Shown here in pieces: positions 46,828-50,480 of a stretch of 64,000 bases of DNA. The notes under the pieces were generated by a model, which saw only the letters and a program-made list of their open reading frames with translations, was not told where the DNA came from and made no database searches. Origin of the DNA: Pseudomonas tritici (GTDB taxonomy: Bacteria > Pseudomonadota > Gammaproteobacteria > Pseudomonadales > Pseudomonadaceae); the NCBI RefSeq assembly GCF_014268275.3, contig NZ_CP077084.1:558001-622000 (forward strand), in the 5' to 3' direction. Numbering within the stretch: the first letter of the stretch is position 1; the number at the start of each line of letters is the position of its first letter. Position numbers and translations under genes: made by a program.

Positions 46828-47266
46828 GCACGGCTCCGAAGGCAAAGATGCGCTGCATTCTACCCCCGAAGACGACCCAAGGCCGAAGCTATTGCCCAGG
46901 GTCATGGGCTCGTTGGCGATTGTCGGCTTGATGGTGGGCTTGATGATTGGCCGCCTGACCACCCCGGACCCGGTCGAACTGCAGCAGGTTGAGACCGCGG
47001 CGGATGGCGTGGTGGTGTGGTTCAACAGCGAACCCAAGCTGCACGGCGAGCATATCGACGGCACCGTGGCGCTGTTGTTTGACGCCCAAGGCAAGGGCAC
47101 CAGTGGGCAACTCAAGATCAATGAAAAGGACGTGAACTGGCGCGTGCGCAAGACCGACGGCGGCTTGCTGCTGAATCTGGTGGCGGCTCGGCCGTTGCGC
47201 GGGGATTGGAGGGGGGAAGAAGTTGATGGCCGCTGGCGGCTGGAGATCCATCTCCAAGAGCAATAA
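46826..47266 (+). CDS. Small single-span membrane protein of unknown function
   Basis: 146 residues: about 25 polar residues, one membrane helix (about 27-43), then a soluble domain of about 100 residues. Its ATG interlocks with that of trmL in the shared CATG, so the two genes diverge with no gap. AAGGA lies about 10 bases upstream. Family not recognised. Confidence 0.75.
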   Translation: MHGSEGKDALHSTPEDDPRPKLLPRVMGSLAIVGLMVGLMIGRLTTPDPVELQQVETAADGVVVWFNSEPKLHGEHIDGTVALLFDAQGKGTSGQLKINEKDVNWRVRKTDGGLLLNLVAARPLRGDWRGEEVDGRWRLEIHLQEQ

Positions 47267-47476
47267 AAGAGGGAGTTCCCGGCCTGCCTGTACCAGGGCT
47301 CCCAAAACGGGGTGAAGCCAGAGGCTTCGGTGTTAAAGAGGGAATCCCCGGCCTGCCTGTACCAAGGTTCCCCAAAGCGGTGTGGAGCGCGATGCGGTTC
47401 GCATCAAGCACCCCGGGTGTAAAGAGGGGAGTCTCGGCCTGCCTGTACCAAGGTCCCCGAAACTGGGTAGTACAGG
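47266..47476. repeat. Three direct repeats with embedded hairpins
   Basis: Copies begin near 47266, 47335 and 47421, each with AAAGAGGG followed by CGGCCTGCCTGTACC and a variant of AAGGTTCCCGAAACGGGGTG. Between them lie two different hairpins (GAAGCCAGAGGCTTC; GATGCGGTTCGCATC). The third copy has CCTGTAC/GTACAGG at its ends. No gene is evident here. Confidence 0.7.
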
Positions 47477-47538
47477 GGTTATTGCAGGGCGCGTGCCAGA
47501 GTGGCCAAGGTGTGCCAAAAAAAACTTCTAGAAAGCGC

Positions 47539-47569: not shown

Positions 47570-47684
47570 CGGGATTCTCTATGTTCTTACTACGATGCTT
47601 GCTTGAGGCTTGGAAGGCGTGCGCGATGCTGGTACAGGGTGCATTGAAGCGGTGCACGCGCCTGGACCCTTATGGAGATCCAAA

Positions 47685-47765
47685 TGTGGGAGCGGGCTTG
47701 CTCGCGAAGGCGGTGTTTCAGTCACTGATGTGCTGAATGACACCGCCTTCGCGAGCAAGCCCGCT
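47685..47765. repeat. REP doublet split by the IS110 element (left part)
   Basis: A normal left arm (TGTGGGAGCGGGCTTGCTCG...) and most of the right arm, ending GCAAGCCCGCT. The expected CCCACA is found instead at 49014-49019, beyond the IS. Confidence 0.9.
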
Positions 47766-47790
47766 TGTGTCTTGAACCAGGCTTAAACTG

Positions 47791-47955
47791 AAGGTGAGAG
47801 CGGTGAGTGACAAGCTGAATGCCCGAAGTGCTTAAAGCACGTGTGGGAGCCCATGCTGTCACTCACCTCTCCACTCTGGTCATTGAGCCCGAACAGTTGA
47901 ACGAGCCCACCTCGAACAGTTACAAGCGTGGGCCAAGCCAGAGCGCTCTCACCTT
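47791..47955 (+). ncRNA. Bridge RNA of the IS110 element
   Basis: AAGGTGAGAGCG (47791-47802) pairs with CGCTCTCACCTT (47944-47955), closing two arms. Arm 1 (stem 47802-47812/47857-47867) carries GCCCG (47821-47825), a hairpin GTGC..GCAC, and GTGTGGGAGC (47841-47850): these match the left and right halves of the REP target around CT. Arm 2 (stem 47874-47879/47938-47943) carries ACAGTTG (47893-47899), a hairpin CGAG..CTCG, and ACAAGC (47922-47927): these match the element's right and left ends. This is the two-loop layout reported for IS621. Confidence 0.85.
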
Positions 47956-47975
47956 GAGTGTAAGAGGATTTGGCT

Positions 47976-48908
47976 ATGTTTTCCTATCCAGCAGGTATTG
48001 ATGTCTCCAGCGGTAGCCTCGAGATTCGGGTTGATCAACTGGATGTAGCGATGAGTTGTTCCAATTCGCAGAGTGATTTTCCTGGGTTAATTGGATGGCT
48101 AACCCTGCATCGCGTGGGTCGAGTGTTGCTGGAGGCCACTGGCGGTTACGAGCGCAAAGTCATGAAAGCGCTTCAAGCTGCGGGCTTTGAAGTCATACGG
48201 ATCAACCCTTGCCGAGCCAAAAGCTTTGCCCGGGCTATGGGGCAACAAGCCAAAACCGATCCGATAGATGCACGCCTTCTTGCGCAGTTCGCAGCGGTCA
48301 TCAAATCGCCCGATAGCCGGGTTACCAGCGCCGAGCAGGATGATTTGCGCGCCCTAGTCCAACAGCGAGAGCACTTTGTTCAGCAAAGAGATGACGACAA
48401 ACGGCGGCTTAAAACGGCCTCCTCTGACGTGGTCAAGCCTGCGCTGCAGAGTCATATCGACTATTTGCAAAAAGTGCTGAAGGAGCTGGAAAGCCTGATC
48501 CGCCAAAGTACAGAACGTCTGGATCGTAAAAAAGTAGCCCTTCTGTGCTCAGTCAAAGGCATAGGACTTGTTACAGCGGCCAGCTTGATGTCCTATCTTC
48601 CGGAGCTAGGCGAGGTGGGTAGACATCAGATTGCAGCATTGAGCGGCACTGCGCCCTACAACGACGATAGCGGCAAGCACAAAGGCAAGCGTCATATCAG
48701 CGGCGGCAGGTTCGCCGCGAGGCGCTCACTGTATATGGCCTGTTGGTCAGTGATCCGGTTTCAGCCTGAGTTTGCCGCGCGATATAAGGCGCTGCGCGAG
48801 AAAGGAAAATGCGCCAAAGTGGCACTCATCGCGTGTATGCGTGTTTTGCTGGTACGCCTAAACGCAATGATCCGTGATGGATCTGAATGGAAAGAGCAAG
48901 CCGCCTAA
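47976..48908 (+). CDS. IS110-family transposase/recombinase
   Basis: 310 residues. N-terminal RuvC-like DEDD domain with D9 (GIDVSSG), E53 (LEATGGYE), D95 and D98 (KTDPIDARL); a coiled coil; then the C-terminal Tnp domain with a GIGLVTAASL helix-hairpin and the serine-bearing LSGTAPYNDDSGKHKGKRHI. ATG 47976 has AAGAGGA upstream. Full length, no frameshift. Confidence 0.95.
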   Translation: MFSYPAGIDVSSGSLEIRVDQLDVAMSCSNSQSDFPGLIGWLTLHRVGRVLLEATGGYERKVMKALQAAGFEVIRINPCRAKSFARAMGQQAKTDPIDARLLAQFAAVIKSPDSRVTSAEQDDLRALVQQREHFVQQRDDDKRRLKTASSDVVKPALQSHIDYLQKVLKELESLIRQSTERLDRKKVALLCSVKGIGLVTAASLMSYLPELGEVGRHQIAALSGTAPYNDDSGKHKGKRHISGGRFAARRSLYMACWSVIRFQPEFAARYKALREKGKCAKVALIACMRVLLVRLNAMIRDGSEWKEQAA

Positions 48909-49013
48909 AATCCTGCGGTAGCTATTTCCTAAAGCAGTTACACGGAGTACAGCCGTGGGAGCGTTGCCGCCTCTGGAAAAAATGGCTTGATGAAAACCAT
49001 CAAGACAGTTGCT

Positions 49014-49019
49014 CCCACA
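49014..49019. repeat. Right remnant of the split REP
   Basis: CCCACA, the terminal bases of the REP arm interrupted by the IS. Confidence 0.75.
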
Positions 49020-49043
49020 TTAGATCTTCAGTGAGCCTGTAAG

Positions 49044-50480
49044 TCAGGCGTCGTCGCCCTCATCGTCGTCACCACCATCGACCTTCATCCCCAGCTCCTT
49101 GATCTTGCGCGTCAGGGTGTTGCGGCCCCAGCCCAGCAGCACGGCGGCATCGCGACGGCGACCTGCGGTGTGCTTCAGGGCGGTTTCGATCATGATCCGC
49201 TCAAACGCTGGTACGGCGCTGTCCAGCAGGCTCGACTGGCCGCGAGCCAGGGCCTGATCCGCCCATTGGCGCAGCGCCTGCTCCCAGTTGGTCACCGGCG
49301 CAGAGTCCTGCGGCAGGCTGAGCAGTTCCGGTGGCAGGTCGCTGATATGCACTTCGCGCCCGGACGCCATCACCGTGATCCAGCGGCAAGTGTTCTCCAG
49401 CTGGCGCACGTTACCTGGCCACGGCAGGTTCTTCAGGTATTCCTCGGTCTCGCTTTTGAGCAGCTTCGGCTCAACCGCCAGCTCTTGCGCGGCGCGGGCA
49501 AGGAAGTGGCGGGCGAGCGTCGGGATGTCTTCGCGACGGTCCGACATCCGCGGAATGTGGATACGGATCACATTGAGGCGGTGGAACAAGTCCTCACGGA
49601 ATTTGCCCGCATGCACCAGGGTTTCCAGGTTCTGGTGGGTCGCGGCGATGATACGCACGTCGACCTTGACCGGCGTGTGCCCGCCAACCCGGTAGAACTC
49701 GCCGTCCGCCAGCACGCGCAGCAGGCGGGTCTGGGTATCGGCCGGCATATCACCGATTTCATCGAGGAACAGCGTGCCGCCGTCCGCCTGTTCAAAACGC
49801 CCGCGACGCAGGTTGGCGGCGCCGGTAAACGCGCCTTTTTCATGGCCGAACAACTCGGACTCCATCAAGTCCTTCGGGATAGCCGCCATGTTCAACGCAA
49901 TAAATGGCGAAGCCGCCCGTGGGCTGTGACGGTGCAGGGCGTGGGCCACCAGTTCTTTACCGGTCCCCGATTCGCCATTGATCAGTACGGTGATGTTGGA
50001 GTGGCTCAAACGCCCGATGGCGCGAAACACTTCCTGCATCGCCGGCGCTTCGCCGATGATTTCCGGGGTGCGGGTCAGGGCGGGTGGGGCTTCTTGGTTC
50101 TGCTGTTCCTGGGCGTGCTGGTTGGCGCGTTTGACCAGCGCCACCGCCTCGTCCACGTCGAATGGCTTGGGCAGGTATTCAAAGGCGCCGCCCTGGTAGG
50201 ACGCGACAGCGCTGTCCAGGTCCGAGTGCGCGGTCATGATGATCACCGGCAAACGCGGGTGCTGCTCGCGAATCCGTGCCAACAGGTCCAGGCCACTGGC
50301 GCCGGGCATGCGGATGTCGGAAATGATCACGTCGGGCTGCTGGCGAGCCAGGCGGCTCATCACCCCGTCGGCGCTGTCGAAGCTCTGGGTGGTCATGCCT
50401 TCCTGTTGCAAGGCTTTCTCGAGGACCCAGCGGATAGAACGGTCGTCATCGACGATCCAGACAGTTTCACTACGGCTCAT
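49044..50480 (-). CDS. ntrC: NtrC, nitrogen response regulator
   Basis: 478 residues: receiver domain with phospho-acceptor D55 (IISDIRMPG), sigma-54-activating AAA+ domain (GESGTGKE, GAFTGA loop, GGTLFLDEIGD) and a Fis-type helix-turn-helix at the C-terminus (RRRDAAVLLGWGRNTLTRKI). Activates sigma-54 promoters under nitrogen limitation, such as the glnA promoter here. Overlaps ntrB by 4 bases. Confidence 0.97.
   Translation of the reverse strand: MSRSETVWIVDDDRSIRWVLEKALQQEGMTTQSFDSADGVMSRLARQQPDVIISDIRMPGASGLDLLARIREQHPRLPVIIMTAHSDLDSAVASYQGGAFEYLPKPFDVDEAVALVKRANQHAQEQQNQEAPPALTRTPEIIGEAPAMQEVFRAIGRLSHSNITVLINGESGTGKELVAHALHRHSPRAASPFIALNMAAIPKDLMESELFGHEKGAFTGAANLRRGRFEQADGGTLFLDEIGDMPADTQTRLLRVLADGEFYRVGGHTPVKVDVRIIAATHQNLETLVHAGKFREDLFHRLNVIRIHIPRMSDRREDIPTLARHFLARAAQELAVEPKLLKSETEEYLKNLPWPGNVRQLENTCRWITVMASGREVHISDLPPELLSLPQDSAPVTNWEQALRQWADQALARGQSSLLDSAVPAFERIMIETALKHTAGRRRDAAVLLGWGRNTLTRKIKELGMKVDGGDDDEGDDA

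Follow-up and report, generated by a model that had tools for sequence, protein, structure and literature searches.

A question is raised by the locus described here: how did an insertion sequence come to interrupt a repetitive extragenic palindromic (REP) sequence, and what selected the exact position? The window that was analysed is a stretch of 64,000 nucleotides, bases 558001-622000 of the 6.24-Mb single-contig genome of Pseudomonas tritici, and its positions 47766-49013 hold what is, judged from its sequence, an intact-looking IS110-group insertion sequence of 1,248 bp. We consider it very probable that a bridge RNA specified by the left end of this element guides its insertion into the REP. 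The fold and its guide sequences had been noted in a first-pass annotation of the window; that observation is confirmed here, and its interpretation as a bridge RNA that accounts for the REP location is supported.

Insertion site and copies of the element

The following features define the site.

47682-47708, plus strand: first REP of an inverted pair, unbroken (AAATGTGGGAGCGGGCTTGCTCGCGAA), read from the sequence and found likewise at the copies L002, L003 and L005
47747-47765, plus strand: left part of the interrupted second REP, which is unbroken in G017 and L105; from the sequence, it includes the left target GCCCG (47759-47763) and the core CT (47764-47765)
47766-49013, plus strand: IS110-group insertion sequence, 1,248 bp with the right copy of the CT core included, delimited by five copies and by the empty site in G017
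49005-49013, plus strand: right end ACAGTTG and core CT, the left donor, which gives the TTG of the putative circle-junction promoter; from conserved end pairs
49014-49020, plus strand: right target CCCACAT, the remainder of the interrupted REP, from the sequence and the five copies

Five copies of the element are present in the genome, each of 1,248 bp with the same ends, core and target; differences from the window copy number at most two per copy and lie outside the RNA. It had been proposed that further copies be collected and their junctions compared; all five follow GCCCG-CT-CCCACAT, their common site being GCCCG-CT | CCCACATT. Four of the five occupy the second REP of an inverted pair, with L002, L003 and L005 showing the arrangement seen at the window copy. 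The fifth, L004, has an atypical left flank (site AATGTGGGAGCAGGCCCGCT|CCCACATT), in which the usual REP arm is not present to the left of GGCCCG. An unoccupied site is found in the related genome G017, where the REP is unbroken exactly at the insertion point in a locus that is 84% and 90% identical to the window flanks on the two sides, and the ends of the element are consistent with this REP. The corresponding REP of G004 is also unbroken, but its sequence is AAGCCCC-CT-CCACATT.

The non-coding ends measure 210 bp on the left and 105 bp on the right. The 11 named relatives found all belong to Pseudomonas, and in a plasmid search 2,420 of 2,421 records fell below 60% identity, with one record at 60-80%.

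A predicted, conserved two-arm RNA at the left end

The left end folds as the first-pass annotation had described, into two arms closed by a 12-bp stem in which AAGGTGAGAGCG (47791-47802) pairs with CGCTCTCACCTT (47944-47955).

47791-47955, plus strand: predicted bridge RNA, two arms within a closing stem, from fold, consensus and covariance model
47802-47867, plus strand: target-binding arm, from consensus fold and covariance model
47874-47943, plus strand: donor-binding arm, on the same evidence

The fold of 47788-47956 reaches -77 kcal/mol with a z-score of -6.3, and none of 200 shuffled sequences folded equally well. In the consensus of 24 relatives six base pairs of the closing stem are kept (TGAGAG/CTCTCA), the outer four and inner two pairs lying outside the consensus helix. 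The alignment of these relatives contains 43 pairs, in which 99.0% of cells are paired as compared with 30-47% when one side is slid against the other. A lack of conserved pairing among homologues had been named in advance as a finding that would count against a bridge RNA; compensatory change on both sides is instead seen in 12 of the 43 pairs, a number reached by none of 500 shuffles. Further pair types are no more numerous than in shuffles, 470 of 500 having a count as high. Three of the 43 pairs lie between the guides themselves, CCC on the left with GGG on the right, and these may reflect only the REP.

A covariance model, R1, was built from the window element and 23 relatives, and gives 185.8 bits at 47788-47958, in keeping with the check by covariance model that had been suggested. 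Among the candidates scored in this genome only five left ends match at E <=1, and 38 of 398 sampled Pseudomonas genomes carry at least one match at E <=1e-4. A scan with Rfam found no family at its gathering score within the element. Against elements 37-42% identical in protein R1 scores 33-48 bits; since true RNAs are matched on the opposite strand with up to 36 bits, the weaker of these distant matches are no evidence by themselves.

Short model matches (65-104 nt) in several genomes were considered as RNAs consisting of the target arm alone, and this was rejected for the cases fetched; the short matches in G095 (C3, C55), G356, G088, G264, G313 and G318 lie no more than about 50 bases from a contig end and are thus attributed to truncation by assembly. 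Two internal remnants were also noted, L179 (G284) with transposase residues 243-277 only and L195 (G391:C47) without transposase, and both look like deletion remnants.

Guides and their match to the junctions

Four short sequences within the internal loops were proposed as guides, and each is found at its place and agrees with the junctions.

47821-47825, plus strand: left target guide GCCCG, identical to 47759-47763
47841-47850, plus strand: right target guide GTGTGGGAGC, pairing with GCTCCCACAT at 49011-49020 with one G-T wobble
47893-47899, plus strand: left donor guide ACAGTTG, identical to the right end of the element (49005-49011); ACAGTT is invariant in 24 of 24 aligned RNAs
47922-47927, plus strand: right donor guide ACAAGC, the reverse complement of GCTTGT at 47763-47768 and pairing with it; ACAAGCG is shared by all 24 aligned RNAs

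Dinucleotide shuffling of 47791-47956, repeated 5,000 times, never brought the four strings together. Singly, GCCCG occurred in 871 shuffles, TGTGGGAG (the eight bases of the right guide used in this test) in 17, ACAGTTG in 127 and ACAAGC in 529. The two bases after the left guide, AA, do not match the CT core; the right guide does pair with the core.

For the relatives, the conserved end motifs and the stem served to locate ends and guides, independently of any match with the flanks, and the register of the guides was taken from the window element. The resulting 90 end-pair rows, which include one contig under two names and L024 twice, were merged to 75 by a coarse key and yielded 26 genome-guide units with at least five left bases; L094, with an altered stem, was left out at one point of the analysis. 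When matches are scanned over offsets and averaged over the 26 units, the claimed left position has an identity of 0.87 as compared with 0.70 at the next offset, and the claimed right position 0.86 as compared with 0.59. The right match is unique at its quality in 22 of the 26 units.

The window element and its close relatives, unlike the more distant of the 24, have a second ACAGTT, at 47916-47921 here and immediately ahead of the right donor guide. An IS621-like handshake pairing was considered by eye, as the bases C and G that follow ACAAG fit positions -1 and -2 where these are G and C; the same two bases are found in G158 and G161, where position -1 is C, and a handshake is therefore unsupported beyond the common case.

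Guides and targets change together

The flank table draws on 200 loci, from which 66 were left out (second contig names, loci fetched for other reasons and repeats of the same place). With wobble allowed, all five positions are paired in 94 of 105 left-flank rows, four positions in seven rows, three in one row and two in three rows; among 90 right-flank rows, 88 pair at all five tested positions and two at four. Most of the rows fall into the commonest classes, the flank GCCCG with guide GCCCG (28 rows) or, by wobble, GTCCG (37 rows) on the left, and guide GTGGG with flank CCCAC (80 rows) on the right. The rarer classes are those in which guide or flank departs from the common sequences. On the left, exact matches are seen for GCCCC (three rows), ATTCG (six) and ACCCG (six, one of them a repeat of L024), together with guide GCCCG at flank ACCCG (six rows, wobble), GCTCG at GCCCG (six, wobble) and GTCCC at GCCCC (one). 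On the right, guide GTAGG is found with flank CCTAC in seven rows and TAGGA with TCCTA in one; the latter class is a single insertion, L019, whose host G161 holds one other exact site.

Insertions that do not match their guides had been named as the observation that would tell against the idea, and the outcome is that where the guides of relatives differ their targets mostly differ correspondingly, with some misfits of which G165 is the clearest. When guides were swapped among the 26 units, with all copies scored, the observed pairing was reached in none of 100,000 swaps on the left and in 134 of 100,000 on the right. With one unit for each of the nine distinct guide pairs these figures are 392 and 1,419 of 100,000. 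The swap test takes no account of relatedness among the elements.

Choice of site within hosts

Five REP variants were counted in 20 genomes, the reversed patterns numbering no more than 13 per strand. In several hosts the guide fits the REP that predominates: in the genome studied here GCCCGCTCCCAC occurs at 311 sites and GCCCCCTCCCAC at 13; G308, G158 and G188, with guide GCCCC, have 553-1,164 GCCCC sites and 10-64 GCCCG sites; and G018, with guide ATTCG, has 139 ATTCG sites, 12 GCCCC and no GCCCG. These counts agree with the supply of REPs as well as with the guide, and it is the hosts with mixed REPs that separate the two. In G264, with guide ACCCG, all five insertions examined are at ACCCG (a further match, C13, is not among the five), which accounts for 159 of 1,260 counted sites, GCCCG being seven times commoner with 1,096. 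On the right side, six of six insertions in G307 (right guide GTGGG) are at CCCAC, in a genome with 451 CCTAC-type and 394 CCCAC-type sites; seven of seven flanks in G288 are at CCCAC (219 CCTAC and 136 CCCAC sites), as are seven of seven in G156 (404 CCCAC and 209 CCTAC sites); and in G363, with right guide GTAGG, six of six are at CCTAC (576 CCTAC and 303 CCCAC sites). Over seven tests the combined probability comes to 8.7e-7; these tests were picked after the data had been seen and omit G165 (none of three, which counts against) and G158.

The elements of G264 and G307 are close relatives. They are 96% identical in DNA over 945 bp, the readable parts of their transposases differ at few residues, and the alignment shows two places at which their RNAs differ, the left-guide base and the target arm's apical loop. 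The insertions of G307, with guide GCCCG, lie at ACCCG (three), GCCCG (two) and GGCCG (one), as expected if G accepts either G or, by wobble, A, with one mismatch in addition.

Recombinase, putative junction promoter and proposed mechanism

47976-48908, plus strand: DEDD transposase/recombinase, 310 amino acids (PF01548 and PF02371), from Pfam and from PDB sequence and fold matches
47962-47967, plus strand: AAGAGG, a likely ribosome-binding site eight bases before the ATG
47784-47789, plus strand: TAAACT, a box resembling a -10 element, which a circle junction would place 17 bp from TTGCTT; the TA-N3-T spacing is present in 90 of 90 end pairs

The predicted protein matches PF01548 with 78.5 bits (cut-off 29) and PF02371 with 56.8 bits (cut-off 21.3). 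Two PDB sequences match at E <=0.001, ISCro4 and IS621, and the predicted model has its best fold matches with the same two. Residues D9, E53, D95, D98 and S232 are invariant across 32 aligned recombinase sequences and probably correspond, as judged by alignment, to D11, E60, D102, D105 and S241 of IS621. Loss of the catalytic serine in a group of 57%-identical relatives was considered and dropped, as S232 aligns with S241 of IS621 and is invariant; the residue that varies in this group is the one preceding a conserved GG at 243-244. Flags for a TGA within some relatives proved to be the ordinary stop codon in the three loci checked (L015-L017).

When the ends are joined, all 90 end-pair rows give TTGCTT or TTGGCT followed by 17 bases and TA-N3-T. 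In G018 (L021, L073-L077) and G363 (L090, L103) an additional G at the right end (ACAGTTGG-CT) is offset by the loss of one base from the left end. The spacing thus stays at 17 bp, an indication that this promoter is under selection. In the inserted state here the first box reads CCGCTT, and scanning the integrated locus for sigma-70 promoters gave no promoter-like site, a null result that fits a promoter present only in the circle without proving one. A junction promoter is likewise described for IS621 (PMC11208160, PMC11208158).

Circle formation, transcription, binding of the RNA by protein and catalysis we infer to proceed as follows. In an excised circle the joined ends would build a promoter, with TTGCTT spanning the core and TAAACT following after 17 bp, from which transcription would start near 47795, at the foot of the conserved closing stem. 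The bridge RNA would bind the 310-residue recombinase, which is of the DEDD and serine type; its first internal loop would pair with both REP strands around CT, GCCCG on the left and CTCCCACA on the right, and its second with the joined ends of the element itself. The recombinase would then swap strands at CT, so that the element would enter the REP without duplication beyond the core. The preference for REPs would thus be written in the RNA, and relatives with changed guides would sit in correspondingly changed REP variants.

A copy in G227 (L012/L041) measures 1,357 bp between its ends, where about 1,240 is usual, and has a repeated stretch around the start of the transposase gene (tnp) and one N.

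Misfits and alternative explanations

Several observations weigh against guidance by a bridge RNA. The clearest is G165, in which three of three insertions of an element with guide GCCCG are in GCCCC, in a genome with 401 GCCCC and 20 GCCCG sites; the base adjoining the core therefore seems to be loosely read. One mismatch each is seen in L013, L052 (guide GCCCC, flank AGCCC), L101 and L178, and the degraded copy L022 pairs at three of five positions. L160, L181 and L194 of G391 have the guide AATGCCGCAG, which in the common register pairs at two of five positions; only a shift of one base makes it fit GGCCG, the REP flank in that genome. The same guide is present in G127 (L020), where it likewise agrees with its REP only in the shifted register, and a similar one in G117. 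In G156, L063 and L064 carry a mutated right guide, GGGGG for GTGGG, at two different CCCAC sites, beside five other copies with the right guide intact, and movement in trans or tolerance is possible. Of the 134 loci that remained for the flank table 21 could not be parsed, as far as seen fragments, contig-end pieces and more distant elements. The seven flanks of G288 are perhaps only four independent insertions, since contigs end at the element, and the probability would then be about 0.02 instead of 0.001. The recombinase model has a mean predicted local distance difference test (pLDDT) score of 71.6, with residues 210-246, including S232, below 50. Within the RNA itself there is a second GCCCG at 47886-47890, and in 25 of the 26 units another position matches the five left flank bases equally well, so that the left match alone is weak. 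The swap test with nine guide pairs is only moderately strong, and related sequences are not independent. It is this non-uniqueness of the left match, together with the weaker test on nine guide pairs, that sets our confidence no higher.

Some of these points bear on what else could place the element in REPs. The transposase alone might recognise them, by sequence or as a hairpin, with the left-end RNA serving as a regulatory 5' leader of tnp as in ISPpu9; the RNA does lie directly upstream of the tnp start, and G165 sits in GCCCC despite its GCCCG guide. Yet guides and targets change together, and the elements of G264 and G307, whose transposases are near-identical where readable, are found at ACCCG in five of five cases examined in the one (guide ACCCG) and at ACCCG, GCCCG and GGCCG in the other (guide GCCCG); the likely ribosome-binding site, moreover, lies outside the closing stem. 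We regard this explanation as extremely unlikely. Shared descent is another matter, since there is relatedness among both elements and hosts and, for most of the 20 hosts counted, the guide fits a REP variant common in the host, so that clades of elements and of host REPs might vary along the same tree without any pairing. The agreement observed consists, however, in complementary bases at a single RNA position and not in mere correlation; it persists, in weaker form, with one unit per guide pair, and it extends to choices within the mixed-REP hosts G264, G307 and G288, with the G264 guide fitting the rarer variant. An origin in common descent is thus very unlikely.

It may also be asked whether this is an IS1111-type seekRNA element, as both families guide DEDD transposases by RNA and ISPa11, of the IS1111 type, targets Pseudomonas REPs (PMC11187229). 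Here the guide-bearing RNA is on the left, the left end being 210 bp as compared with 105 bp on the right, and the guide for the bottom strand precedes that for the top strand, an order that PMC11187229 contrasts with that of IS1111. The guide-bearing RNA predicted here lies upstream of tnp and not downstream as in IS1111 elements, although no search of the right end for another RNA was made. Assignment to the seekRNA type seems to us barely credible.

Guidance by a bridge RNA remains the explanation that we prefer, and within it the rarer classes invite a further suggestion. It is quite possible, though we would not call it probable, that in this Pseudomonas lineage single-base guide changes following REP variants naturally reprogram the bridge RNA, and that the wobble bases of the guides act as degenerate positions that accept several variants. 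The positions concerned are U against C or T and G against G or A, as in G307 at ACCCG and GCCCG and in G309 at GCCCG and GTCCG.

Genomic context

The element sits between a response-regulator gene, which from its sequence and position we take to be ntrC-like, and the gene for the nitrogen-regulated small RNA NrsZ (Rfam RF02695, 131 bits), the flanking intervals being 47254-47469 and 49044-50480, both on the minus strand. By eye, a sigma-54-like TGGCAC/TGCA sequence upstream of nrsZ, at about 47483-47499 on the minus strand, is intact, and insertion of the element thus probably left the control of nrsZ in place.

Relation to known systems and implications

The element resembles IS621 in its DEDD and serine recombinase, its left-end RNA with the target loop before the donor loop, its CT core, its REP target, its junction promoter and a natural target that wobbles against the guide (PMC11208160, PMC11208158; PDB 8wt6-8wt9). 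It differs in that the recombinase is only 28-30% identical in fold alignment, that 47788-47956 contains no separate 5' stem-loop and the two arms share a closing stem, that guide contacts are 5-6 nt on the left and 7-10 nt on the right as compared with 9 and 4 nt in the IS621 structure (PMC11208158), and that the core positions of the left guide (AA) do not match CT. Bridge RNA structures are described as diverse within the family (PMC11208160), and the missing stem-loop therefore separates the element from the IS621 form and not from bridge RNAs. ISCro4 (PDB 9t56), the best PDB sequence and fold match of the recombinase, is 29-30% identical in fold alignment.

ISPpu10 of Pseudomonas putida is by its description an IS110-family element that targets Pseudomonas REPs, and a bridge RNA has been predicted for it (PMC11208160, Extended Data Fig. 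10c legend); relatives of the present element that lie in CCCG-CT-CCCACAG REPs (G288, G307) are 53-54% identical to the present element in transposase. ISPpu9 is likewise a Pseudomonas IS110 element in REPs with a structured upstream RNA region and the small RNAs Asr9 and Ssr9, but these have been read as regulators of tnp (PMC8450116). The seekRNA elements ISEc21 and ISPa11 share RNA-guided DEDD transposases, and ISPa11 a REP target, although ISPa11 is of the IS1111 type with its RNA downstream of tnp (PMC11187229).

The first-pass annotation took the guide reading and the REP specificity of this element to be its own contribution. The guide reading is supported, whereas the principle, REP targeting and a bridge RNA for ISPpu10 had been published: PMC11208160 describes bridge RNAs and the Escherichia coli REP target, shows guides and targets covarying across thousands of pairs, notes an rG:dT pair where IS621 meets its natural target, and predicts the ISPpu10 bridge RNA; REP targeting by ISPpu9, ISPpu10 and ISPa11 is reported in PMC1525189, and natural re-direction of related elements in PMC11187229. 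Among titles and the starts of abstracts in open-licence PubMed Central, we found no paper on this element or on guides that track Pseudomonas REP variants. With the mechanism known from IS621 and a bridge RNA already predicted for ISPpu10, what is added here is that guides follow REP variants, together with data on choice within hosts.

IS110 recombinases are under development as tools for genome insertion. In the sources cited here published specificity data come mainly from IS621 screens, to which this lineage adds about 100 natural flanks with readable guides and REP variant counts for 20 hosts, including two hosts with near-identical elements that differ by one guide base. These data suggest that the right guide and, in G264, the A/G position are strict and that in G165 the base adjoining the core is loose; they also suggest where wobble comes into play, and they offer a possible explanation of why these elements sit in REPs. 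If bridge RNAs are indeed reprogrammed in nature by single-base guide changes, the diversity of REPs and the evolution of the guides would together constitute a natural, readable specificity experiment for bridge recombinases.
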